Shown in pieces: positions 3,540-62,401 of a DNA stretch of 64,000 nt. A model generated the notes under the pieces. The model saw only the letters and a list, made by a program, of their open reading frames with translations, did no database searches and had not been told where the DNA came from. The DNA lies in the NCBI GenBank assembly GCA_022264855.1, contig JABYQU010000059.1, forward strand, positions 1 to 64,000, in the 5' to 3' direction. Within the stretch, counting starts at the first letter, position 1, and every line of letters starts with the position of its first letter. Made by a program: the position numbers and the translations under genes. The stretch comes from Lenzites betulinus. Taxonomy: Eukaryota > Basidiomycota > Agaricomycetes > Polyporales > Polyporaceae.

Positions 3540-6500
3540 TCAGAACCCGTCCATGTCTAAATCAACATCTTCCGCGCTGTCCAGCGTGAAGAATGTGTCT
3601 CCAAAGGCATTCCCCGCCGTCTCATCGTTACCCGCTGCCGCCCCATTCTCCGGATCGGAAGTGTCGCTGCTCTCAGTGCTGCTCGAGGAGGATTCGGAGG
3701 ATGGGCTTGTACTGCGGAATTCCGCTGCAAGACGACCAGGAGGTGTGCCAGAAGCCGAGGGCGACTCGGGCTCAGAAAAGCTAAAGCTTTGGGCCCGGCG
3801 TGCCACCCCAAATGTATCGAGGGCAGAGCTGCCGACCATGGGTTTCATCCTTCGGCGATCTTGCATCTTGATGAACGTGGTATTGTACTCCGCTAGTGGC
3901 CCAGCAAGCGCATGGATGCCTGCGCTGTAGACATTCGGTACAAGCTTGATCGAGTCGCCATCAGGCCGGCGGCTCTCTGCGACGTAAACCGAGTGTTTGC
4001 GTAGTGAAGCCATGAGCTCGTGGACATCCTTCGAAAGATCCGGTGAGTGATGCTTCACGCCTTGCTTGGCTCCGAGTTCGGCACTGATCTGCCTAGCGAG
4101 ACGGCGTAGAACCTCGATGCACGGGGAAATGGTTTCGAGCCATTCCCATGAGGCATTGCTTCCATGGGCCTTGTATATCACCTGAGCGAGCGTATCCCGC
4201 ATGCTATGGTTAGTAGATATTTTCACATATGTGACTGGACTGTACCTTGATCGAGAAATTTAGATGCTCTTGTAGCAGATCAACCGGTATAAAACCGTCG
4301 GCGTTGCCTGTTGTATTCACCAGCCAGTTGTTCATGATAATCTCCCTGCATGAAGCATTAGACAGCACAGATGGAGAACGTATAATGAGCTCACATACCG
4401 AAGTTCCCGGGGCCAAACATATGTAAGGTTATGCACAAGATGCAGGAGCTCGTGAGCATACTTCACACGACCCATAGCACGGAAACCAAGAGCCCATAGC
4501 TTCAGCACAGTAACTAGATGATCGGAGGATCCACTCTTGATAGCATCGGCAAAGTGGCGAAGGATGAGTGCATCACGGAAGAAGAGGATGGCATTATGGA
4601 GGACCGGGTCCTGAGCGCTGCGCTGTGGCTGTGATCCTGGGACGGCGGCAGTAGCATCGGCTGGCAGCCCGTTCTCACCAGTGTTCGCTGCTGTCTCCAC
4701 CCCACCATCGTGCAACGACACTGCCTGCGCTGGATTGGCGTACTTGTCAACTACGGCAGCGATATGTGCCTGAAATTGCTCGAACGACGATTGCGCCGGG
4801 TAGTCGGCGATGTTGTGCCCCGATACGAGCTCGAGACAGTGGAGGACCCGCGCGTAGAGAGAAACGAAGGTGAGATCTCGGCATGTTCTGTACGGAGGTA
4901 AAGATGAAAGCACTATAGGTTTGCGCTGCAAAACTGAGTTGTGGAAGGACAAGGACCCAGGGTCCCGAGCACTGAGTGAAGGATCTCCCCAGTGGGTCTC
5001 AAGTACTCCATGGGTAGCCGCCATCTGGTAGTGGAAGAAGCCTGGGGCAAAGACGACATTGAGGTAAGACTGGGACGCATCACCGTGGCCGACACGGGTG
5101 TTTGTGACCGCACGTACGCGTGCCATGGAGAGCTGGTCGCCAAAGACAATCTTGATTGTCTCATTGAACTCAGGTGAGCGGACGTCGTGTCCCATCTCGG
5201 TAAACATAGTGTCCAAGACCTTGACATTCCCTAGCGTGCTTGACTCATCGATCTCCATTGACGGCATCGGGAAGACAGTTGTTTTGTGGAGTGGAATACG
5301 ATGGGTGCTGGAGGGTGCAACGGCAGTGAGTTGCTCCCTGTATCGCTGGAATGAGGGGCCACCATGCTGAACCGTGATGTTCATAACAGTCCAGATGAGG
5401 TGGTCGCGCATAGCCTTGGTCTCATCCTGGGTGAGTCGGATGTCTTTGAATGTCAGCGGAGGTGCTGAGCTGAATGAACGGACCAGGTCGGCGGTCCTCA
5501 TGTACTCGCGTGGGGCCTTGTAGAGTGAGAACGCGGTCGCGCAGGTACCATTCTCCTGTGAGTCCGTCCGCCCGAGGATCTGCTCTGCTGCTCGGAACAT
5601 GAAGTTGATGTTGTCGTAAACGTTTCCTAGGCTGTCATCCCCAGGCTGCCTCGGGGACTGAGCACGTGTTCTGAGCTCGGTGCGACATGAGTCGGACAGC
5701 GTGTCTAGTATGCCCACTCGTGGTCTTGGTCTCCCCGTCGTGGCTGCAGGGATGACATGTTGACCGGGAGGTGCAAAGACTGTGGAGTGTAAGCGAGAGG
5801 AGTTGCCGTCAGGAATGAGTCCAGGGAGGGGATTGGCGTCTCTTGCCCGGGTTGGTGTGCTTGGCAGCGATGTCTCAGACTCCTCGAAGTCGGTGTCCTC
5901 CCAGCTTGAGTCTGAAGATTGACTCCATGATGGATTCTCCTCAGGTTTGTACTCGGAATCGGAAGAGGTGTCATCCGACTCCATAGCACATGGTGTTCGT
6001 TCTACCTCACCTGTGCCAGTAGGTCTTGAACTGCGCCGACGTGTGCCTGCTAGCATTTGGTAGCTGCTTGAGAGCCCTACATGGGACATCACACTGATGA
6101 CTTGACGTGACGAACCAGTTGCGTAGAGGTATAAACCCATGATCTGGGCTGCATAGCTATTTCGCTGGCTACGTGCTCGGAGGAGAATTGTCATGGCGCT
6201 ACCAATCAGCTGGGGGAATGCGAGGTGACATGGTGAGCACTACGAACCGATAATTGTGGATATCAGATAATGATACTGACCTTGCTCCGCCATTCCTCAT
6301 ATCTGTTTGCATTCGTCTGTGTATCAGAGCTCCTCAAGACGTTGAGCTTCTTGGCCTGCCGTGTGGTTGTTGAGAAGGCGACCAGAAGAGCTAGCGTGTG
6401 TGGGCAAAGCTTGTACAGGTTATCATAGAGCTGAGTGAACTTGAAGCTGCCTGCGAAGCTCTCGTTTATCGGCCGCCTGAAAGCCTGTAGTGCTTGGGAG

Positions 6501-7225
6501 CGCGTCACTGCATTGCCTTCCCCGTGCACCAGTGAGCTGACATACTCCACAGCCCAGCCTCTGACAGCGGCGCGACCAGTTCTGCTGTTGGAGGAAGAAA
6601 CCCAGTTGGCAAGAACTTCTTGTACCCGTCCAGGCACTCCAAAGAGGCCCCAGTAGCGGTCATCACCGTATCCTGCCGACACGGTCTTGTCTGATATGAA
6701 GAGAAGAAGGTCGCCGTAGGTAACTTGCTTTCCTTTCATGTACGACAGGACGTCTCTGATACGGGCACGTTGATCTTCAGCTGCGGCATGCTCCAGAGCA
6801 TCCTTCTCGGCTTCTTCACGAAGCGCCTTTGCATGCATGGCCTCCGCATGCGCAGCTGAAGCTTGCACTTGAACTTCTGCCATCTGCTTCTTCTTCTTCT
6901 CCCTTTGTTTTGCTGCTTTGCGACGACGGCCTACAGAGCGTTCTGCACGGTTACGCCCTGTGATAGGGGAGCTTGGATTGACATGGTCGCTAGAGTAGTC
7001 GCCCTCGCCGCATCCCTCGACCATCGTCCCAGGGAGCTCAGGTGCGGTGTCTCTTTCGGTGAAGGCTAGCTGCTCATGGTGTTCGAGCTCCTCCAGCAGG
7101 ACTAGGTCTTGTTGACAATCGTCCCCCAGGTCGTCTGAGCCACTGAGCAGTTCTGTCAGGGGCGAGGGGGGTGCAGAAGAGGGTGGTAACGGTGACAAGG
7201 GACGAGCCACTGAGCACGGAGTCAT
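3540..7225 (-). CDS. DUF6589-domain protein (probable mobile-element or accessory gene)
   Basis: Several exons read as one protein. The N-terminal exon (7225 to about 6290) starts at an ATG (MTPCSV), carries a basic coiled stretch (RRRKAAKQREKKKKQ) and ends near YEEWRSK. The main exon (about 6215-4405) runs from LIGSAMTILLRARSQRNSY through a Ser-rich insert to FGDQLSMARVRAVTNTR and HGVLETHWGD. A short exon (about 4347-4245) encodes NNWLVNTTGNADGFIPVDLL. The last exon (about 4210-3540) encodes VIYKAHGSNASWEWLETISP and an acidic tail. The order of these blocks matches the DUF6589 family of Agaricomycetes as I know it; its function is unproven. Introns have clear GT/AG ends (for example GTATGT near 4398). 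The gene is divergent from the RecQ-like gene and looks intact. Association with a mobile element is inferred from the flanking inverted repeat. Confidence 0.8.
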
Positions 7226-7449
7226 GATTTCAGGTCGGTTCACCGGTGTTGTCCTCAGTAATCCTGTACTCACTATCTCATTAGTGAGGGCGTAGTATAC
7301 TACACGTATAAAGAATACAAGCTTACCTCTCGAGAAGAGAGAACTTGCCGATCAGCGTCTGAGGAAAGCAAGGTGGTGGTGGCGCAGACTTTCTACGTCT
7401 CTCTTTGAACCTCATCCTCAGTGCTCGCCATTCTCCCACTTGTGCTTAT
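7226..7449. promoter_or_regulatory. Shared divergent promoter region
   Basis: The 224 bp between the inferred ATG codons of the DUF6589 gene (minus) and the helicase gene (plus) must hold both promoters or short 5' leaders. It includes AT-rich sequence around 7285-7325 (GTATACTACACGTATAAAG). Compact divergent spacing suggests co-expression, which is inference. Confidence 0.45.
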
Positions 7450-10119
7450 ATGGCCCGCTCATCCCACCTTCGCCGAAGACGCAGTCCCCGGCCTTTACCT
7501 GTCATCAGTGCTCCCAGACACAAACTCACGCCTGAAGATGTGCAGCTGCTATCACAAAAACTTCGTGACACCTGTGGATGGCACGCTGATCCTAAGCCAT
7601 TCCAGCTTGCAGGAATCAAAGCTCAGCTCGACGGTGACGACATGATCATTCAAGCGTCGACTGGTGCTGGGAAGACTGCTATAGCTGCTGGGCCGCACCT
7701 TTGGCAGACGAGTGCAGGCAAAACGACTATCATGGTGTGCCCGCTACTCTCCCTTGAGGACGAAATGGTGAGTACAGTGCTTGATATCATGTACATGGCA
7801 GTTGACTATGCTGACAAGCTTCTATTCGATTCATTCCGTGTTTCGTATAATTGGCAGGTTCGTACCTTTGAGTTAGAATTTGGCCTCAATGCCGTCGCTC
7901 TTAATAGTACGAATGGCGCATGCTCACCTTTGACTATCAAGGCATGTATTCTTCATATAATCACAGCCATTGTCGACGTTTTAACACCCATATTTATAGA
8001 GAATCATCTCCGGAGCATATCATATCATTTTGATATCCCCGGAGATGCTACAGTCACGAACATTTGTCAACCGCGTCCTCCGCAACCCACGCTTTGCTCG
8101 CCGGGTACTCTCTGTTGTGGTTGATGAAGCCCACTGCATCTCACACTGGGGAGCTGAATTCCGAAAGAAGTATAGTTCTATCGGTGTCGTCAGAGCTTTC
8201 CTTTCCCGTGGAACACCAATCGTAGCCCTTTCAGCTACGTTAACGCCACGGGTTCGCCGTGATGTCACGAGCAAGCTACATTTTCCAAAGGGAGGGGATC
8301 ACTTCCTCAATGTCAGCAATGATCGCTCCAACGTCTCGCTAGTTGTACGTGCTTGCGAGCATCCGATGAACACGTATGCAGATCTCGACTTTGTGGTTCC
8401 AGGCTCTATCAGCTCCATCGAGGACATTCCCAAGGCATACATCTATGCCGACAACATCCACATGGGCTCTGAGATCGTCGACTATCTCAAGGGACTTGTA
8501 GTCTCTCGTATGGGAGCATCTGACTCGTCCGAAGAGCACGCAACAGGTGCTATACGCCCTTTCAATGCCATTATGTCAAACTCCTACCGCGAAGAGTCCA
8601 TGGATGCTTTCCGACGTGGTACTGTGCGCATCCTCGTCTGCACAGATGCTGCGGGAATGGTGAGTGACGCTAGAACTATGACCTCCACATTTCGATGTAA
8701 CTTATAAAACTGGCACCACAGGGCTGCAACATCCGAGATGTAGATCTGGTGGTACAATGGAAGCTCCCTGCGACACTGTCAAACTTCATACAGCGCGCCG
8801 GCCGCGCTGCATGGGCATCCTCGCGGCAAGGCTTGGCAGTGCTCTTGGTTGAACGCTCGGCCTTCTCTACTCCTGATGCAAAGTCTGCACGACAGCCTCA
8901 CAAAACGCAGGGAGGACGCCGAGGGGCTGTCACCACAAGGCCCAGTCCAGCCGGATCCAAGTCCATCCCTCAGGCTGGCCACTCTTTTCCGACCATGTTG
9001 CATGCCAGTGAGAGCCTCCTCCAGCAAGAACCTCCTGAAGCGAACACTGCTGACTGTCGGCTTATAGCTGACCGCCGGAAACAGTCTAAGATGTACGCAG
9101 AAGCGCATGGATTAAAGCGGGGCTCCCATTCTGGTAACGACGACGAGCAACCAAGCGGAGAGGAGCCACAGCTCGACCCGGATGCTGCAGACGAAGGCTT
9201 GTTGGCTTTCGTGCAGAGCGTTCACTGCCGTCGAGATGTATGGTCGATGGTTTACGAGTCTACTCATCAAGGTTAGTGTTGCACAGATGAAGTTATCGGT
9301 CAGGTATTGATTATTTACCCTCTATAGACTCTACAACACCCTGCTGCGACTTGTGCTGCCCATCTTTGCTCGATAGGACACGACCAGGTCCCCATCCACG
9401 TCTGAAGCGCACGAAGAAAGTGAAAAAAGGCCTACCAGTTGTCGAATACCAAGGACGACTACGCGATTGGTGCAAGACCGTATTCGAGCGCGACCACAGC
9501 GGTGCGCAATGGGACCATACGGGCCTTCTCAGTCACATGCAGGTCGAACACTTAACCTCAGTCGGACGCCTCAACAGGGTCAAGCTCGCCTCCATTCTGG
9601 GAGCATCTTGGGTATGGTGGGATGAGTACTCCGACGAGCTTCTTGCATTCACGGAAGAATGGCTCATACCGTTTGTTCCTACCCCACGCACTCGGAAAGC
9701 CGGCGCTGCACCACGGACGTCCAAGTCGAAGCGCTCTCGCGAGCTGGAAGATGCTTCGGACCACCCAAACAACACATCCTCCCCTGCCAAACGCCGTCGG
9801 AGGAGAAACCGTGGCTCCGCGCTGGATACTACAGGTTAGTGTGTCATTTTAGAGACTACGCTGCGTGTACACGCTCATCCGCACAGAAACCGATGCACAT
9901 GGAGCACCACTGTTACAATGGCAGTCTCCTGAGACGCCTGACACGTATGCTGCTGTAGATAGCACCTGTCAGCGTGCCATCTATCCGTGTGCTGTCCGCT
10001 GGGAGCACGATGCTCCTGCAGTGGACAATGCCCCCGAGTTCGAGCTTGGCCTCAACCTGCCGCCTATTGCCCAGTATGTCGCTGTGCTACACGACGCCGG
10101 TAGTTCCAGTTTAATCTAA
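7450..10119 (+). CDS. RecQ-like superfamily 2 DNA helicase (divergent, accessory type)
   Basis: The start is taken at the first ATG (MARSSHLRRRR). Exons are about 7450-7767, 7858-7938, 7999-8658, 8722-9271, 9329-9836 and possibly beyond. Helicase motifs appear in order: motif 0/I FQLAGIKAQL...QASTGAGKT (about 7600-7680), a Ia-like CPLLSLEDEM, ISPEML (about 8040), motif II VVVDEAHCISHWG (about 8120), motif III ALSATL (about 8226), motif V LVCTDAAGM/GCNIRDVDLVV (8632-8755) and motif VI FIQRAGRAAW (about 8790-8820). The DEAH plus CISHWG signature is typical of RecQ. The final Arg usual in motif VI is Trp here. The C-terminal part is rich in charged residues, has a CxxC pair (CCDLCC) and a basic tail (AKRRRRRNR). 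Where the gene ends is unclear: open reading continues in pieces to about 10119 and perhaps into the tandem array. Confidence 0.75.
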
Positions 10120-10442: not shown

Positions 10443-13322
10443 TAGATCGAGTTCCCTTATATACATGGCTCTGAAATGTATGTACGGTACGCGTTTGCAA
10501 TGAGACCCCCATCCCCATCGCTCTCTCTGTCGGTCTCAAGCCAAGCGCGCCGCTCAACGTCCCTGCGGCAGCCCCGAAACTTCACACAAACGCGTCTCCT
10601 CTGCACGAAGGATAATTCGCGCATGCCCGGTGGGGCCGAAGCCACCCGCGCCCGGCACGCTGAACTCGCCCAACCCCGCGCAGACTCGTTTACTCGTGTC
10701 TAGCCGCCGCCGCCGCTGCCGCCGCTGTTCCCGTCCCCCCCCCTCCTGCACGCCGTCGTCCCCCGCACGCGTCCGAACCCGCTGCCGTCCGTGGTGTGCC
10801 TGCCCCCTCTCTGCCGCGTAGCTGGCACTGCCGCATGCCTGAGCCCCAGTGTACGTCCTCCGTCGACCCACGCCTCGCACCCCGAATCCCGTACGTCCCC
10901 CGTCGACCCGCACTTCGCACCCCGAACCCTTGCGTGCCCGCAGCCCCGCACCTCGACCCGTGCATTCGATCCTCGTATCCGATCCTTGTATTCGATCCTC
11001 GACCCCGATCCGCGTATTCGACCCTTGTTTGCCCTCGATCCTCGATTCGATTCTTGACCCTCGACCCACGTTTCCTCGCCCCCGGTTCACGACCCACACC
11101 CCATCTCGATTCCTGCGCCTCACGTGTCCCGACACCGTCCTCGATCACTGTTGGAGTATCGGACTGGTTTTGGTATGATCCTGTTGATGTTGCTGTTGAC
11201 GTTGAGTGTCCCTTTTCTCTGAAATTGGTATGTTTGCTTTTGCCGCCCCCCCTTCTCATTGCTCCCCCTCGCTACATCGCTTGTAGGGGTGTGTTAACTT
11301 TAGCGCCCGTTGGTATCAAGCGCCTCCGCTCGGTCCGAACAGCGATCGATAGATTAGATCGAGTTCCCTTATATACATGGCTCTGAAATGTATGTACGGT
11401 ACGCGTTTGCAATGAGACCCCCATCCCCATCGCTCTCTCTGTCGGTCTCAAGCCAAGCGCGCCGCTCAACGTCCCTGCGGCAGCCCCGAAACTTCACACA
11501 AACGCGTCTCCTCTGCACGAAGGATAATTCGCGCATGCCCGGTGGGGCCGAAGCCACCCGCGCCCGGCACGCTGAACTCGCCCAACCCCGCGCAGACTCG
11601 TTTACTCGTGTCTAGCCGCCGCCGCCGCTGCCGCCGCTGTTCCCGTCCCCCCCCCTCCTGCACGCCGTCGTCCCCCGCACGCGTCCGAACCCGCTGCCGT
11701 CCGTGGTGTGCCTGCCCCCTCTCTGCCGCGTAGCTGGCACTGCCGCATGCCTGAGCCCCAGTGTACGTCCTCCGTCGACCCACGCCTCGCACCCCGAATC
11801 CCGTACGTCCCCCGTCGACCCGCACTTCGCACCCCGAACCCTTGCGTGCCCGCAGCCCCGCACCTCGACCCGTGCATTCGATCCTCGTATCCGATCCTTG
11901 TATTCGATCCTCGACCCCGATCCGCGTATTCGACCCTTGTTTGCCCTCGATCCTCGATTCGATTCTTGACCCTCGACCCACGTTTCCTCGCCCCCGGTTC
12001 ACGACCCACACCCCATCTCGATTCCTGCGCCTCACGTGTCCCGACACCGTCCTCGATCACTGTTGGAGTATCGGACTGGTTTTGGTATGATCCTGTTGAT
12101 GTTGCTGTTGACGTTGAGTGTCCCTTTTCTCTGAAATTGGTATGTTTGCTTTTGCCGCCCCCCCTTCTCATTGCTCCCCCTCGCTACATCGCTTGTAGGG
12201 GTGTGTTAACTTTAGCGCCCGTTGGTATCAAGCGCCTCCGCTCGGTCCGAACAGCGATCGATAGATTAGATCGAGTTCCCTTATATACATGGCTCTGAAA
12301 TGTATGTACGGTACGCGTTTGCAATGAGACCCCCATCCCCATCGCTCTCTCTGTCGGTCTCAAGCCAAGCGCGCCGCTCAACGTCCCTGCGGCAGCCCCG
12401 AAACTTCACACAAACGCGTCTCCTCTGCACGAAGGATAATTCGCGCATGCCCGGTGGGGCCGAAGCCACCCGCGCCCGGCACGCTGAACTCGCCCAACCC
12501 CGCGCAGACTCGTTTACTCGTGTCTAGCCGCCGCCGCCGCTGCCGCCGCTGTTCCCGTCCCCCCCCCTCCTGCACGCCGTCGTCCCCCGCACGCGTCCGA
12601 ACCCGCTGCCGTCCGTGGTGTGCCTGCCCCCTCTCTGCCGCGTAGCTGGCACTGCCGCATGCCTGAGCCCCAGTGTACGTCCTCCGTCGACCCACGCCTC
12701 GCACCCCGAATCCCGTACGTCCCCCGTCGACCCGCACTTCGCACCCCGAACCCTTGCGTGCCCGCAGCCCCGCACCTCGACCCGTGCATTCGATCCTCGT
12801 ATCCGATCCTTGTATTCGATCCTCGACCCCGATCCGCGTATTCGACCCTTGTTTGCCCTCGATCCTCGATTCGATTCTTGACCCTCGACCCACGTTTCCT
12901 CGCCCCCGGTTCACGACCCACACCCCATCTCGATTCCTGCGCCTCACGTGTCCCGACACCGTCCTCGATCACTGTTGGAGTATCGGACTGGTTTTGGTAT
13001 GATCCTGTTGATGTTGCTGTTGACGTTGAGTGTCCCTTTTCTCTGAAATTGGTATGTTTGCTTTTGCCGCCCCCCCTTCTCATTGCTCCCCCTCGCTACA
13101 TCGCTTGTAGGGGTGTGTTAACTTTAGCGCCCGTTGGTATCAAGCGCCTCCGCTCGGTCCGAACAGCGATCGATAGATTAGATCGAGTTCCCTTATATAC
13201 ATGGCTCTGAAATGTATGTACGGTACGCGTTTGCAACGAGACCCCCATCCCCATCGCTCTCTCTGTCGGTCTCAAGCCAAGCGCGCCACTCAACGTCCCT
13301 GCGGCAGCCCCGAAACTTCACA
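10380..13322. repeat. Tandem array of a 912-bp unit (3 full + 1 partial copy)
   Basis: Copies lie at 10380-11291, 11292-12203, 12204-13115 and 13116-13322 (partial, ~207 bp). The three full copies appear identical. The partial one has at least two substitutions and then joins unrelated sequence after AACTTCACA. Each unit starts with GTTAACTTTAGCGCCCGTTG and carries a TATA-like CTTATATACATGG. It also has a (CCG)n-like run, a long pyrimidine-rich plus strand, and degenerate 13-14-nt subrepeats of the type TATTCGATCCTCG. Long open frames exist on both strands but are repeat artefacts of the G+C-rich composition. Confidence 0.95.
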
Positions 13323-36417: not shown

Positions 36418-38509
36418 ATGGAGCTGAACATCCACTTCCCTGCAGTCTTACTCAGCTTCCTCGTCTTCACGGCGATCTTGTTATGGAGGCGCACTTCACG
36501 TTCTCGGCGGCTTCCTCTTCCCCCTGGTCCCAACCCTATGCCCATCATAGGCAACGTCCTCGACATACCCACGAAACGGATGGCTCCGAGTTTGAGAGAC
36601 ATGTCAGCTAAGTATGGTAGGTAAACACACGCATTCTCCCTCTCGTATCTACCCTGACTGCCAGTCGAATCTGCTTATAGGAGACATCGTGTATTTGAAT
36701 GCCCTCGGGCAGCCCATGGTAGTCCTCAATTCTTACGAAGCAGCTATCGCTGTGCTCGAGGGTCACTCGGCGACCACCTCAAGCCGACCTCAGAGCATCA
36801 TGGCGGACTTGTACATCATACCCCTTTTCGTGATTATGGAACTTAGCACTGACGACAATATGTGCTAGATGTGGCTTCTCGTGGCAATTCGGGCTGCACG
36901 GGTATAATCAGTCATGGCGCGAGCGACGCAAAGATTTCCACAGCGCCTTCCAGGCGCATATGATGGAGCAATACCAACCTGTTCACCTGCGGGAATGCCG
37001 CAAGTTTCTCCAGCGACTTTTGAAGACTCCCGAAGACTTCATGTCCCTTACTCGCACGTGAGTTATTTCACTGTGATTCGCCATCGTGTTTATACCGACC
37101 GCTCGGATTACTAGTGTCTTCGCCGCAACAATCATGGATGCAGTTTATGCAATCAAAGTAGCTGAACGGGACGACCCTTACATCACCCTTACGGAAAGGC
37201 TGGCATCCATTTTCAACGATCTGGCCGTACCAGGACGGTACCTGGTTGAAGTGTTCCCATTCCTTAGGTTCCTCCCCTCATGGTTTCCGGGCGCAGCGTT
37301 CAAGAAGACGGCCCGCACATGGCGCCCGCATGTCACCGCTGCGATCGATGTTCCGTATGCCGCTGCTTTGGAAAATATGGTGCGTTCATTGTGTCGTATG
37401 ATTCGACACCCGCCGCGGCTTATTCTGGATGGATGGTGAAAGGCAAACGGGCGTGAATCCATTGTTTCAGGGCTCATAGAGAGGAAGCTGCAGAAGGATG
37501 AGAGTGTCTCCCAGGAAGATCATCTTCGGTTTCGAGATGTCGCAGGCATAGCACACTTGGGTATGTACTGTTTCTTTTTTGTTTCAAAATCGCGACCGCG
37601 CAGTGTTAAGCCAACGCTTCCGTATATTTATAGCTGGTGGAGACACAGTAAGTGGAGGCGGATGTGTCTCTGTCTGACAACCACCGCTCACCCTCAGATC
37701 TGCCACAGACGATGTACTCCATGCAAGTGTTCTTCCTCGCCATGGTTCGATTCCCCGAGGTACAGCGTAAGGCACAGCAAGAGCTAGATGCGATCATAGG
37801 CCCCGACAGACTTCCAGAGTTCGCCGACAAAGAAGCACTTCCATATATCAACGCAGTCATGAAGGAGGTCATTCGTTGGCACAGTGTTGTCCCTCTTGGA
37901 GTCTCTCATTACACGACTGAGGAGGACGAGTACAACGGGTATCGAATCCCAGCTGGCACGATCATAATGCCGAATGCTTGGTGAGCGGCTTTTCTACGTC
38001 CACATTCGACGCCAATGGTACTCAGCAGCAACAGGGCGATGTCAAGAGATCCTGTGGTATACCCCGACCCTGAGCGGTTCATGCCTGAACGATTCCTAGA
38101 AGATGGCGGGAAATACTACGAAGAAGCCCGCGACCCCGAGAAGTTCCAGTTCGGCTTTGGGCGCAGGCACGTTGTCTTCGTACCACCTCATACTACGTGC
38201 CCAGGCTGAAGCCTGACTTGCAGAATCTGTCCGGGGCGGCATTTTGCACTTGAAGGGCTGTTCATCGTCATTGCGTCCGTGCTGCATGTGTTCGACATTG
38301 GTGCCCCCCTAGACGAAGAGGGTAAACCTGTCGAAGTCAAGCCCGAGATGGTCCTAGATTACTTCTTGTCGTGAGCAGTCTTGACTTTATACATACCTGA
38401 TAAAGGCGACTGACCAGTATCTTGTAGTGGCCCCGCCCCGTTTCAATGCAGAATTACTCCAAGGTCTGCGCGCGCAGAAGCACTCATAGGCCAATCGGCC
38501 AGAGCGTAG
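36418..38509 (+). CDS. Cytochrome P450 (P450-4), second of a tandem pair
   Basis: Close paralogue of P450-3 with the same exon layout. The ATG at 36418-36420 starts MELNIHFPAVLLSFLVFTAI, then the hinge RRLPLPPGPNPMPIIGNVLD, LGQPMVVLNSYEAAIAVLEG, helix C region SWRERRKDFHSAFQ and ATIMDAVYAIKVAERDDPY. I-helix is HLAGGDT/TMYSMQVFFLAM, ExxR is KEVIRWHSVVPLG, followed by EEDEYNGYRIPAGT, FMPERFLEDGG and heme loop FGFGRR/ICPGRHFA, where ICPG follows the intron at about 38167-38222. C-terminus GPAPFQCRITPRSARAEA, stop TAG at 38507-38509. The pair arose by tandem duplication (same intron positions, many shared blocks). No lesion is seen. It is convergent with the peroxidase gene. Confidence 0.9.
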
Positions 38510-38716: not shown

Positions 38717-40115
<1,399 letters not shown>

Positions 40116-48213: not shown

Positions 48214-49945
48214 CTATTTCTTGAGCAGCCAGTTTCCCCCAATGCAACGAAGGCACCACCCTTGCGCGGCGTCAGGCTCGGGAGCCACCTCGGGGACAGC
48301 CTGACGTTGATAAGTCAATTGGGCTCGCAGTTCAGGGAGATATCGAAGACTCACTTCGACCTCAGCTACGGCTGCCTCGGGTTCGCGCTTCAGCAGCCAG
48401 TTGCCGCCAATGCAGCGCAGACACCAGCCTTGCGCCGCGTCAGGCTGCGGGGTCACTTCGGCAACAGCCTATATTGTAAACAGTCAGACCGGGATCCCGT
48501 TAGGAGCGGCATGTCTCAGAAACTCACTTCTACCTCAGCGACGTCCGCCTCAGGCTCAGGCTCGCGTTTGAGGAGCCAGTTACCACCGATGCAGCGCAGA
48601 CACCATCCCTGTGCGGCGTCAGGCCCGGGAGTCACTTCGGTTGCAGCCTGATCCGAACGTGGGTCAGCTGAGCCTATCAAAGATTTCGTAGTGAATCAAT
48701 GCACCTCAGCCTCGACAACGTCAGTCTCGGGCTCGGGCTCGCGTTTGAGCAGCCAGTTGCCACCGATGCAACGCAAGCACCAGCCTTGTGCCGCGTCGGG
48801 CTGCGGGGTCACTTCAGTGACGGCCTATATTGTCATCAGTTAGATCTCAGTCCGGGTAGGAACGGCGATGTCTCAGAGACGCACTTCTACTTCAGCAACG
48901 TCCGCCTCGGGTTCAGGCTCGCGCTTTAGCAGCCAGTTGCCGCCGATGCAGCGCAGGCACCATCCCTGTGCGGCGTCAGGCCCGGGAGTGACTTCAGTCA
49001 CAGCAGGCTGATACAAACACTAGTCAGTTGAGCCTACAAAATATTTCTTAAGCGATTGAATTCACCTCAGGCTCGGCCTCGACAACGTCCGTCTCAGGCC
49101 CAGGCTCGCGTTTGAGCAGCCAGTTTCCTCCCTCGCAGCCGCGGTTGCACCACCCTTGCGCCTGGTCCGGCTGGGGGACCACCTCAGGGACAGCCTGTAA
49201 AGTCGACGACAGTGAGTTGAGCCCACACTGTCTGATCGTAGCGATTGCGAACTTGCCTCCGCTTCGACTTCAGTGACAGACTCCGAGTCGACGGCGTCAG
49301 ACTCGGGCTCGCGCTTGAGTAGCCAGTTGCCGCCGATGCAACGCAGACACCATCCCTGCGCGGCGTCAGGCCCGGGAGTTACTGCGGTTGCAGCCTGATA
49401 CAAATGTCAGTCAGCTGAACTTGCCAAGAGTTTTGTAGCGATATAATTTACCTCAGTCTCGACGACTTCCGTCTCCGTCTCCGGCTCGGGCTCACGCTTG
49501 AGCAGCCAGTTACCACCAATGCAACGCAAGCACCAGCCTTGTGCCGCGTCAGGCTCCGGGGTCACTTCTGTGACGGCCTGTAGTGTCACCAGTCAGATCG
49601 CGGTTCGGTTAGGGGCGGTATCTTCCAGAGACTTACTTCAACTTCAGCTACATCTGCCTCGGGCTCAGGCTCGCGCTTCAGGAGCCAATTGCCGCCAATG
49701 CAGCGCAGACACCATCCCTGTGCGGCGTCAGACCCGGGAGTCACCTCCGAAGTTACAGCCTGGTTCAAACACCAGTCAGCTGAGCCTGCAAAAGATTTCA
49801 TAGCGATATAACTCACCTCAGGCTCAGCCTCGACGACATCCGCCTCCGGCTCAGGCTCACGCTTAAGCAGCCAGTTCCCTCCCTCGCAGCCGCGGTTACA
49901 CCAGCCTTGCGCCTGGTCCGGCTGGGGGACCACTTCAGGAACAGC
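48214..49945 (-). repeat. Array of ten exon-intron repeat units (~178 bp period)
   Basis: Each unit is one exon of 87-138 bp plus one intron of about 50-70 bp; every repeat intron is phase 0. The first and fifth exons are of the WCNRGCEGGNW class, and exons 1-4 match exons 5-8 in order. This implies duplication of a four-exon block of about 750 bp on top of single-unit duplication. Confidence 0.85.
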
Positions 49946-50782
49946 CTGATTCGCTGCGAGTCAGCCAGGTTCGCTCCGAAGGATGACGGACCACCCGGGG
50001 CTCACCTCCACTTCGCCTACCTCCGACTCGGGCTCGGCCTCGCGCTTCCAGTAGTTGCCATTGCCAGTGAAGTACTTCGCGAAGGTCTTCGTGACGCGGT
50101 CATACGGCTACAAAGCGCGGGGAGACGTCAGAGACCTGTTCGACGGCTATGCACAGCGTATGGGCATTTGGGACCCAGCTTACCGGGGAGAATTCGATGT
50201 CCTTCGCGCCGCCCTCGTTCCCGGAGTGGTCGTGGAACGCGGTGAGGTGTCCGCAGCGCGAGCAGTAGACGTCGTGGTGCACGCCCTTCGGGGTGTGCCC
50301 CGCCTTGAGCGACTCGACGAGGAACTCGCGCGAGTGCACGCCGCGCGCGAGCGCCGTATACACCCTACGCGTCAACGCCTTCCCGTCAGCTTCAAGTGAT
50401 TCGTTTGAACGCGGGGAGAGGACGCGCACCAGTCGATGAACTCGGTCTCTTTGCCGCAGCGCGAGCACGTCTGCGGCGGCATCGTGACGTATGTCCCGGC
50501 GACGCCAGTGGACGCAAAATTCTGCCCGAGGAGCGCGGTGAGCCGGTTCTCCTCGTCCGGGCTGATCAGCCACGAGTACACGGGCCGGTCGAGGTCGTCG
50601 CGGGACGAGGTGAGCTCGACGACCTGGCCGGTGCGGGTGGTCCACGCCGATGCCTGCAGGTCAGTGTTCTGGTGAGCAACGGGACAATGTGGATCAGGAT
50701 AGGGAGAGGGGCGTACGGAGGCGGTCACGGAGAGGACCGTGAGGGCGACGAAGGCGCAGATGGAGGCGAGTTTGAACGCCAT
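48214..50782 (-). CDS. Secreted precursor with ten Kex2-type Cys-core repeats (candidate repeat-peptide/RiPP or pheromone-like precursor)
   Basis: About 592 residues in 14 exons. Exon 1 (50782-50717) is a signal peptide (MAFKLASICAFVALTVLSVT). Exons 2-3 (50653-50430, 50364-50184) encode a domain with two CSRCG knuckles (QTCSRCGKETEFIDW and DVYCSRCGHLTAFHDH). Exon 4 (50107-50006) ends GNYWKREAEPE. Ten repeat exons follow at about 49945-49817, 49759-49637, 49577-49452, 49394-49257, 49194-49066, then five more to 48300-48214. Each has the form A(V/A)..VTP.PDAAQGW, a two-Cys core CLRCIGGNWLL (eight copies) or CNRGCEGGNWLL (first and fifth), then KR followed by EPEPE and an acidic tail. The last copy ends KK and TAG. 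KR sites suggest Golgi Kex2 cleavage, and the Glu-Pro/Glu-Ala steps suggest dipeptidyl trimming, as in yeast alpha-factor; both are inference. Family not known to me. Confidence 0.85.
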
Positions 50783-60002: not shown

Positions 60003-62401
60003 TCACGGCTGGGCTCCGTCACCAGCGTACCGCCCCACCCTGAGCCACATCTCCGGCTTCAGGCTCTCCTTGCTCGCGCTTGGGAATGCGACGGCGGAGA
60101 TGTGCCAATGGATCGGTGTCGCGCAGCGCTCGAAGGTGAAGTGCGCGAGCAGGCTGGACAACACAACCTCTGCAAGGAAATCTTCAGAACACTGGTACAT
60201 GGAAGAAGACGTCGGGCACGATACGCACTCATCTCCAGTTGAGAGAATGTGAAGCCACTGCATCGCGCTGATAAGTATCTCGGCCATTCGTTCCAGATGT
60301 TCAGGACTTACATGCATGAACGGTTCCCTCCAACGAACGTCATCCTACACGTGTCAATCGATCGCATAAGCACTATGGCGACGAGGGGGGGTATGTGTAA
60401 CATGACAACGTACAGGTGGGAGTAGACGCCGGGTATCTCCGCATCTTCGACAGCCTTCGGGAGCGGCGCAAGCCAGCGCTCCGGCTTCCACTCTTCAGCG
60501 TCCTCACCCCAGAGCGCCTTGTTGCGGTTGCACGCCCTGACGCCGACGAGCACGTTCGTGCCTTTGGGGACGGCGATGCGGGTCAGCATGGATCCGTCCT
60601 CACCGGGCATAGGTCGGGACAGCGGGAGGGTTGTGTCGCGGAATGCCCTGCGCTGACGCTCGTCATGTAGGCCAGAAGCAGTGTGTAGGGTGGTGCTTAC
60701 TGGCGGAGGGCAAGTGGCGCCGGCGGGAACCTGTAAATCTACTGATTGGCGCGACGTGCTCGACACGCGGCGGGAGGACTTACAATCGTAGAGTCTCTTT
60801 GCAGATCGCGTCGAGGTACGGTAACGAGTTCAGCGTATCATACGGGAGATTGCCATCCCCCGCTTCAAGGATCTCTTGCCGGACCTTGGCCTGGGCTTCG
60901 GGGTGCTCGGAGAGAAGCTGTAGGATGTGTGACATGAGGTGCGAGGTTGTATCTGTGGCCGCAAAAAGGAGTGCGCTAGAAGAAAGCGTCAGTTATCGAG
61001 CGTTCCACTTACGACACATTGGCATCAATACGGCGACGTACTTGATCTGTCCGACGATCTGGTCGTCTGGAAGCCGCTCGGCCTCGTCAGTAGCCATGTT
61101 CGCCTTCACTAATTCCAGATTCACCGTCAGCACCAGCCTCCGTGCGCAGGCCGGAAAGGACGAGCTCACGTAGAATACTCATGATATCCTTCCCCGTGGC
61201 GTATTCGCCCTTCCGCATAGCGGCCTTCTTCTCTTCGACGATCTTGACCGAGGTCTGGTGCAAGACGTGCACGACGCGCTTAAGCTTCTGCGCGCGCACG
61301 ATAGGGATGTGGTCGACGATCCAACGGCGGAGCCACGCGGGCCCGAGCTGGGTGAAGATGGGGGGGATTTGTCGGATGACCATCATTTCCGGGGAGAATG
61401 TGAGAGGCCTGTCGGCCTGTGAGTTATCGACCCGATGTGGTGAAGCACTCGCCGACGACTTACAGGAAGTCCATCGCTGCCATGGTGAATGGGTCGGTTG
61501 CATCGTCCGATGTGAGGGGGTCGAAGGAATACCCTATCCCCGCTTGGCCGATGATCTCAAGCGCGGTACGTCCCATCCATTCGAGCATGTCGAGGTCTCG
61601 TGGTGCGCCTTCGACGCGTTGTGAGATAGCATCGACGAGCTGTATATACTGTTAGTGGTCGCGATGGACCAAATGGAAACGGAAGCGAGACGCACCCTGT
61701 TAGTGACTTCATAGAAGACGGGAGTCAGGGCACGAAGGTGTGCAGCCGAGAACACCGGCGTGAGCATCTTGCGCTGCCTGCGATGCGTGTCACCTATCCC
61801 AGAGGAGGGTCAGTCACTCTATAGGATGTTCACCATAATATGGACGCAGTCACGTACCATGTACGCTGAGAAGTCCTGGACCCAGCAACAGATTGGTAGA
61901 GCTATCATGGGAGACCCGGGTGAGTATAGGCGCTGAAATCTTTTGAAGTATGCAGATCCGACTGACAGACTGGCCCATTCCATCATGTCATATGTGCCTG
62001 GTTCCTTGAGGCAAATACTTTGCAGCGCAGCAGGATCGAATGCATAGAGCCATTTGCGCTACGAGATAAGCCATTGAACTGAGCACAAACTGACTGCGAA
62101 TGGAGAAAAAGAACATACCCCCAACACCGCATTAATCTTCACAACACCGCCATACTGGGTGGCGACCTTGTCGTGAAACCCCCAAGCATCCGCGTCGAAC
62201 AAATCAGCTAGATTTCCTACAAACAAACGCGGTGAGATTAGCGATGTATCGTAATGGAGTTGCGCCCGTTTGCTGACCAGATATGATCGAGCTCGACGGC
62301 GGGCCGGCCACAACGTCTAAGGGCGACTTCACAAACAGCGGGCGTACCAGAGTCCATATGCCCCAGAGAAACACAACCAAGACGACGATATATAGAATCA
62401 T
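60003..62401 (-). CDS. Cytochrome P450 monooxygenase (P450-5)
   Basis: Start ATG 62399-62401 with anchor MILYIVVLVVFLWGIWTLVR and hinge SPLDVVAGPPSSSIISG. Then GNLADLFDADAWGFHDKVAT, YGGVVKINAVLG, DPAALQSICLKEPGTYDMME, FSAAHLRALTPVFYEVTN, I-helix LLFAATDTTSHLMSHILQLL (about 60900-60980), YLDAICKETLRL (ExxR, about 60785-60820), WGEDAEEWKPERWLAPLP (about 60460-60515) and heme loop TFVGGNRSCM (about 60310-60340). The last exon ends MWLRVGRYAGDGAQP with TGA at 60003-60005. About twelve introns. The I-helix reads AATDTT instead of the common AGxDT, but acid and Thr are kept. Close paralogue of the cut-off P450-6 and more distant relative of P450-2. Looks functional. Confidence 0.88.

Follow-up and report, generated by a model that had tools for sequence, protein, structure and literature searches.

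A Polyporaceae family of putative Kex2-processed repeat proteins with a conserved CxxCG domain and changing cores, probably including a ten-repeat signal precursor of Lenzites betulinus

The window analysed here is a whole stretch of 64,000 nucleotides of Lenzites betulinus DNA on contig C64. Its minus strand carries, at 50782..48214, a gene with a reading frame that is open throughout 14 exons and encodes a protein of 593 aa. The ATG start codon occupies 50782-50780 (-), and the stop codon ends at 48214. The predicted precursor starts with MAFKLASICAFVALTVLSVTASASAW and continues with a domain bearing two CSRCG knuckles (residues 85-89 and 131-135), the linker YWKREAEPE and ten repeats. Each repeat consists of an acidic linker and a core and is encoded by one exon of its own (exons 5-14). 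The features of the gene are given below, with the evidence for each in brackets.

50717..50782, minus strand: exon 1 (66 nt), signal-peptide-like hydrophobic start (hydropathy; equal 66-nt exon in paralogues B and C)
50184..50653, minus strand: exons 2-3 with the intron 50429-50365, CxxCG...CxxCG domain (PF26731 label precomputed on most relatives)
50006..50107, minus strand: exon 4, end of the domain (PYDR...) and first Kex2-type site, ...NYWKR/EAEPE (gene model)
49817..49945, minus strand: exon 5, repeat 1, core WCNRGCEGGNWLL and KR (gene model)
49637..49759, minus strand: exon 6, repeat 2, core WCLRCIGGNWLL and KR (gene model and core DNA pattern)
49452..49577, minus strand: exon 7, repeat 3, core WCLRCIGGNWLL and KR (gene model and core DNA pattern)
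49257..49394, minus strand: exon 8, repeat 4, core WCLRCIGGNWLL and KR, followed by the GC-AG intron 49256-49195 (gene model and core DNA pattern)
49066..49194, minus strand: exon 9, repeat 5, core WCNRGCEGGNWLL and KR (gene model)
48885..49007, minus strand: exon 10, repeat 6, core WCLRCIGGNWLL and KR (gene model and core DNA pattern)
48705..48824, minus strand: exon 11, repeat 7, core WCLRCIGGNWLL and KR (gene model and core DNA pattern)
48528..48647, minus strand: exon 12, repeat 8, core WCLRCIGGNWLL and KR (gene model and core DNA pattern)
48355..48468, minus strand: exon 13, repeat 9, core WCLRCIGGNWLL and KR (gene model and core DNA pattern)
48214..48300, minus strand: exon 14, repeat 10, core WCLRCIGGNWLL and KK, stop (gene model and core DNA pattern)

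Exons 4-14 all start in phase 0. The 14-exon reading was preferred because two paralogues on contig C28, B and C, share the intron site after the 66-nt exon 1, and because the model of paralogue C is identical at every residue to the deposited protein P0004. An automatic 13-exon model, which read through intron 1 and used another splice site in the fifth repeat, was rejected. Within the repeat array, the intron 49256-49195 has a GCAAGT donor, the sole non-GT donor of the gene, and was chosen because the repeat fits that way. The DNA pattern of the CLRC core, searched with 0 mismatches, gave eight matches in the 37.4-Mb genome, all of them inside this gene, while its reversed control gave none in the same genome.

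Eight of the ten cores are WCLRCIGGNWLL and two are WCNRGCEGGNWLL. KR and EP come next in nine of them; the last is followed by KK and the stop codon. The first-pass annotation, which had described two CSRCG knuckles and ten two-Cys, Trp-rich repeats, nine of them with KR, is thus borne out by the 14-exon model, and the linker WKREAEPE that it placed before repeat 1 is present as YWKREAEPE. The signal peptide that it proposed corresponds to a signal-like hydrophobic start, with a best 12-residue hydropathy mean of 2.68 (hydropathy only). By all signs in its sequence, the protein appears to be secreted.

Seventeen ORFs of the window were scanned against domain profiles, with matches to peroxidase, P450, hydrolase, F-box, transporter, helicase and DUF6589 domains, none of which seems to explain the peptide. 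Among the other features, three identical-looking 240-aa ORFs spaced by exactly 912 bases form a tandem repeat at 10664-13210, with a period that exceeds the 500-base limit of the repeat finder. At 4335-8704, a DUF6589 ORF (E 3.9e-94) adjoins DEAD/Helicase_C ORFs, possibly as part of a mobile or subtelomeric element; there is no obvious telomere repeat in the first 240 bases of the contig. Peroxidase (below its own cut-off) and fungal peroxidase extension matches at 38784-40011 (-) probably mark a class II (lignin-type) peroxidase gene, and pieces of cytochrome P450 lie at 37652-37981 (+) and 60311-60829 (-).

A domain search retrieved three precursors, in Lentinus tigrinus, Earliella scabrosa and Cubamyces menziesii, and an alignment of these with the window protein and the two paralogues, used as query, gave 36 matches. 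Cores were found in twelve species besides L. betulinus, namely L. tigrinus, E. scabrosa, C. menziesii, C. lactineus, Cubamyces sp. BRFM 1775, T. polyzona, T. gibbosa, T. cubensis, T. elegans, P. arcularius, F. fomentarius and D. nitida, all of whose genera belong to Polyporaceae, as does L. betulinus (one species per genus was looked up). In the domain, identity to the window protein is 76.5% for L. tigrinus, 78.9% for T. gibbosa and 59.1% for paralogue B. The latter (C28:382276-383998, +) has 493 aa, with the same domain and thirteen copies of LPPVWKTLWT with RKR, all encoded in one exon, whereas the window gene has one exon per repeat. Paralogue C (C28:439488-437930, -), which is the deposited L. 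betulinus P0004, joins the same domain to several different W..W cores. The window protein and paralogue B were not among the deposited proteins matched in these searches, which were limited in protein length and number of candidates.

Under this one domain the cores differ widely. The WC-x-RC...GNW(L/I) type of core is shared by L. betulinus A (the window gene), T. gibbosa, L. tigrinus, P. arcularius and D. nitida, and in E. scabrosa the last core resembles it. Cores of the PPVWRPLWT-, PPRWQPYWT- and PPVWKTLWT- types are found in C. menziesii, T. polyzona and paralogue B; Earliella has WPRNWL and WPGNWI cores, and C. lactineus has a TYGWDTISCLT core with one Trp. Even very different cores mostly keep two Trp ahead of the dibasic site. 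The CSRCG domain, for which the first-pass annotation had suggested a search, defines a family that has other cores in twelve other Polyporaceae and in the two paralogues. As a family of predicted precursors, it has so far been found in Polyporaceae.

By its architecture, the window gene is that of a Kex2-processed repeat protein (KEP). EP or EA stands directly behind KR in all ten segments of the protein, which is a Ste13 signature, and the genome has one match to the kexin P-domain (56 of 86 positions) and one to DPPIV_N. We infer that, once the precursor enters the secretory pathway, a Kex2-type protease would cut after each KR, Kex1 would take off the basic residues and a Ste13/DPPIV-type peptidase would trim at least the first EP/EA dipeptides. 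The result would be the release of as many as ten peptide copies, each with WCLRCIGGNWLL or WCNRGCEGGNWLL at its end and probably closed by a disulfide. Since none of the ten linkers of the window gene contains K or R, its sequence does not fix the N-terminus of the peptide. The length of the linker up to GWC is odd in eight repeats and even in two (repeats 2 and 6), so that dipeptide trimming alone cannot yield one common N-terminus, and the Ste13-type dipeptides (EP/EA) reach only the first few steps of each linker. Because these steps are few and the parity is mixed, the predicted products range from a 12-mer up to the whole 36-45-residue Kex2 fragment and are not of one form. In L. tigrinus, KK directly precedes AAWC in 7/7 cores, as it does in two of the three P. 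arcularius cores (the third has RK); in L. tigrinus and those P. arcularius cores a 14-mer would therefore be framed on both sides.

Loss of KR in orthologues would, according to the first-pass annotation, refute its reading; in the nearest relatives, dibasic sites do persist after the cores. KR or KK follows similar cores in Trametes gibbosa (2/2), Polyporus arcularius (3/3), Daedaleopsis nitida (1/1) and Lentinus tigrinus (6/7), the exception being ER in one of the seven Lentinus cores.

All eight CLRC cores have one and the same protein sequence, yet 3-10 of their 42 nt differ in every pair, all silently. Summed over 28 pairs, the 12-codon CLRC core shows 142 synonymous differences; the 2 that count nominally as nonsynonymous are an artefact of the Leu codon path. 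For GGNWLLK across all ten copies, the pairwise differences are 150 synonymous and 0 nonsynonymous, and the linkers of the gene have a dN/dS of 0.12. The 13 copies of LPPVWKTLWTRKR in paralogue B give 499 synonymous against 0 nonsynonymous differences, with a dN/dS of 0.23 in the linkers. Because the cores are identical as protein and yet silently diverged, selection keeps the peptide itself; the repeats are not alike merely through youth, since their silent sites would then match too. On these counts the core is under extreme purifying selection, the selected part being the core and, in paralogue B, also its dibasic site, and the window gene is to be regarded as a real, strongly selected precursor. 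Seven of the nine introns between repeats fall into two types that nearly alternate, a pattern that points to growth of the array through duplication of pairs of exons.

Constraint on the cores could come from any repeat function, including that of an uncut Trp/Cys repeat protein whose repeats are not released and whose KR pairs are incidental. We regard this as very improbable, given that KR, RR or KK also stands behind the cores of relatives whose cores are otherwise different, and that acidic EP/EA steps follow KR directly in the window gene. Released cores rich in W and L might also serve as structural or surface peptides that cover hyphae or assemble into fibrils, in the manner of the Ustilago maydis repellent Rep1, whose peptides are KEP-derived and form amyloid-like fibrils (PMC9769878). 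The cores studied here are hydrophobic at their C-terminal end, multi-copy and nearly identical, as this role would have it, but they differ strongly between paralogues and species, while the exact sequence is kept within one gene at high silent divergence. Such a role is unlikely, because a coat should rather keep its bulk properties than an exact sequence.

The diversity of cores under a conserved leader, between paralogues as well as between species, is a pattern of defence peptides. An effector or antimicrobial peptide acting on competitors, bacteria or other organisms in wood would be processed by the same route as the signal that we favour and would differ in its role, and roles of such peptides in biotic interaction have been suggested (PMC9769878). 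However, the eight copies of the core in the window gene are identical and the cores of five species closely similar, as would equally suit a ligand that binds a receptor, and the linker that Kex2 would leave on it is acidic, with a net charge of -7 to -10. We therefore consider a defensive or effector role rather unlikely, while granting it a real chance.

KEPs were surveyed, and Ste13-type KEPs noted in Basidiomycota, by Le Marquer et al. 2019 (PMC6339444) and Umemura 2020 (PMC7329392), and such peptides were detected in mushrooms by Vogt et al. 2022 (PMC9769878), where a Pleurotus KEP with Ste13 motifs is reported to give trimmed peptides in fruiting bodies. Basidiomycota KEPs such as Pleurotus KEP 1091723 and C. 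cinerea KEP 490115 (PMC6339444, PMC9769878) are the known system nearest to the window gene, from which the present family differs by the conserved CxxCG domain in front and by cores with C-x2/3-C and a second Trp. The text of the KEP papers, in the parts consulted, does not mention such a leading domain, although the published KEP lists may contain members. The family, its conserved domain and its likely origin were likewise not found in the titles and abstract openings searched, nor was any paper found under PF26731. What appears to be new is the family, with its conserved domain and changing cores, and not the KEP class.

The first-pass annotation had further named a RiPP as one possibility, with ustiloxin-type dikaritins among its precedents. 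On a dikaritin-like reading, UstYa-type enzymes would cross-link or cyclise the cores after Kex2 release. Dikaritin precursors do share the design of a signal, Kex2 repeats and KR sites (PMC9769878), and the genome has at least ten UstYa matches. However, none of the matches listed lies on C64 or C28, the two precursor contigs, the core lacks Tyr and the 17 scanned ORFs of the window gave no UstYa match; in addition, UstYa neighbours were reported for only 103 of 1680 basidiomycete KEPs (PMC7329392). Dikaritin-type modification is not supported, and we give this explanation little credence. The proposal of a multi-copy Kex2 precursor with X-Pro/X-Ala steps holds, as far as sequence can tell, for the secreted precursor, the KR sites and the EP/EA steps, and is not supported for the RiPP reading. 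The UstYa-domain matches, on C23, C31 and C61, may belong to dikaritin-type clusters away from the window gene.

Basidiomycete mating pheromones are a-type lipopeptides. The window protein does not fit the short, CaaX-ended precursor of this type, as it has 593 aa and ends in WLLKK. The 18 STE3 receptor matches lie on C65, with none on C64 or C28. The different system that the first-pass annotation proposed was already known as a class, alpha-factor-like Kex2/Ste13 precursors in Basidiomycota having been reported in 2019, 2020 and 2022. A search for an STE2-type receptor gave no match in the genome, and control genomes were silent too in the same search. A Pfam scan of the first 364 residues of the window protein gave nothing over the cut-off. 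Alpha-pheromone leaders appear to belong to another family than the leader domain of the window protein. In ascomycete alpha-pheromone precursors the precursor logic is the same, with short two-Cys Trp-rich cores in many filamentous Ascomycota (PMC6339444). In our judgement, the window protein is probably a KEP of a Polyporaceae family whose released peptide is most likely a signal that acts externally, on the same or on other organisms, and that is used like alpha-pheromones but is not one itself. Since six C. cinerea kep knockouts were reported to have no phenotype (PMC9769878), the signal role is a guess from the class.

Most relatives carry a precomputed PF26731 label, and the window domain aligns with them. 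Structure models are confident over the domain. In that of the relative P0006, the block-mean pLDDT is 88-96 over residues 41-120, against 71.7 for the whole, with a disordered repeat part; the model of P0031 has a mean pLDDT of 82.7 over the whole protein. Comparison of the domain models with solved structures gave no match at E <= 0.001. With four Cys in two CxxCG pairs, the domain may bind zinc in the signal-less forms, and may have either zinc or disulfides in those that are secreted.

When four short relatives served as seeds, a search gave 84 matches, many of them in Agaricomycetes that by their names are not Polyporaceae (Gloeophyllum, Collybiopsis, Serendipita, Rhizoctonia, Peniophora, Boletus, Tricholoma and Pleurotus). 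These proteins are mostly of ~200 aa and, by hydropathy, have no signal-like start. Such PF26731 proteins (Gloeophyllum P0031, Serendipita P0040, Boletus P0056 and others) share with the window gene the domain, both CxxCG knuckles and a W-x3-W-L tail, but they lack the signal-like start and the dibasic repeat array and have a single copy of the tail. The CSRCG region, described in the first-pass annotation as part of a secreted precursor, has a wider distribution. In the window protein it would act as a pro-domain, common to and probably derived from the family without a signal-like start.

The 69 proteins from P0030 upward comprise 7 without the domain motif, 24 with tails of under 30 residues, too short to judge, 29 with W..WW[LM] and 9 others, so that most of the tails long enough to judge have WGKWWLD or something close to it. 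Exact WGKWWLD is present in 17 of the 29 W..WW[LM] proteins, and the best hydropathy is <=1.78 in all 29. Among the nine other tails, P0034 (Cubamyces lactineus) is a precursor of the Polyporaceae kind, as P0036 probably is, and P0054, P0077, P0081 and P0088 are uninformative on the tail. The set is not purely signal-less, because it includes P0082, with a hydrophobic start (2.5), and P0083, a Dichomitus squalens fragment. P0065 of Panus rudis, a PF26731 protein without a signal-like start, has W-IPS-x-PW three times and is a possible intermediate between one tail and an array of repeats. Meripilus lineatus has W-IPS-x-PW once, and Gloeopeniophorella has two W..W boxes; together with Panus rudis, they resemble stages on the way to repetition. 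Both Panus and Meripilus belong to Polyporales but not to Polyporaceae.

In a tree of 49 chosen domain rows, one branch (support 100/99) splits the 27 Polyporaceae from the 22 others, two groups that had been named by kinship before the tree was made; the branch by itself gives no direction. Hydropathy is >=2.15 in 24 of the 27 Polyporaceae rows, the remaining three (P0007, P0017 and P0024) being deposited models without the N-terminus, and <=1.78 in all 22 others, where Meripilus P0074 (1.73) and Peniophora P0046 (1.78) are borderline. Eight of the 27 Polyporaceae rows show no clear cores in the deposited model, probably because these gene models end too soon. Judging by its wider spread, the signal-less form seems to be the older of the two.

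We also compared the tails with 93 repeat ends (the last 20 residues up to the dibasic site) from 20 secreted proteins. At least two Trp occur in 68 of them and W-x3-W-[LIVTM] in 40, whereas 1000 shuffles gave 1.6 on average and 6 at most; these ends are not independent, as the copies of each protein were counted singly, 13 come from paralogue B and a few are non-cores. By our own reading, the motif is present in 7 of the 20 proteins, and the window cores have a spacing of W-x8-W or W-x9-W. The tail was not seen packed on the domain in the structure model of P0031. Place, spacing and composition lead us to infer that the cores descend from the signal-less tail. As a tentative scenario, which we do not hold to be the likelier outcome, a signal-less PF26731 protein of Agaricomycetes with a conserved WGKWWLD-type tail may have been converted a single time, within Polyporaceae, to a secreted source of many peptides, through the addition of a signal exon and the tandem copying of the tail, with Kex2 sites, into diversifying W..W peptides.

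Earlier publications did not settle the role or the origin of the alpha-pheromone-like precursors of Basidiomycota. The CxxCG domain offers a conserved handle for finding precursors that ordinary searches miss because their cores are short and variable, and it brings together three precursors with different cores in one species and a possible path from a non-secreted protein to a secreted multi-peptide precursor. If the scenario is true, these peptides would constitute a new ligand family of basidiomycetes with its origin in an internal docking tail, and a search for the receptor should then start from the partner that this tail binds.
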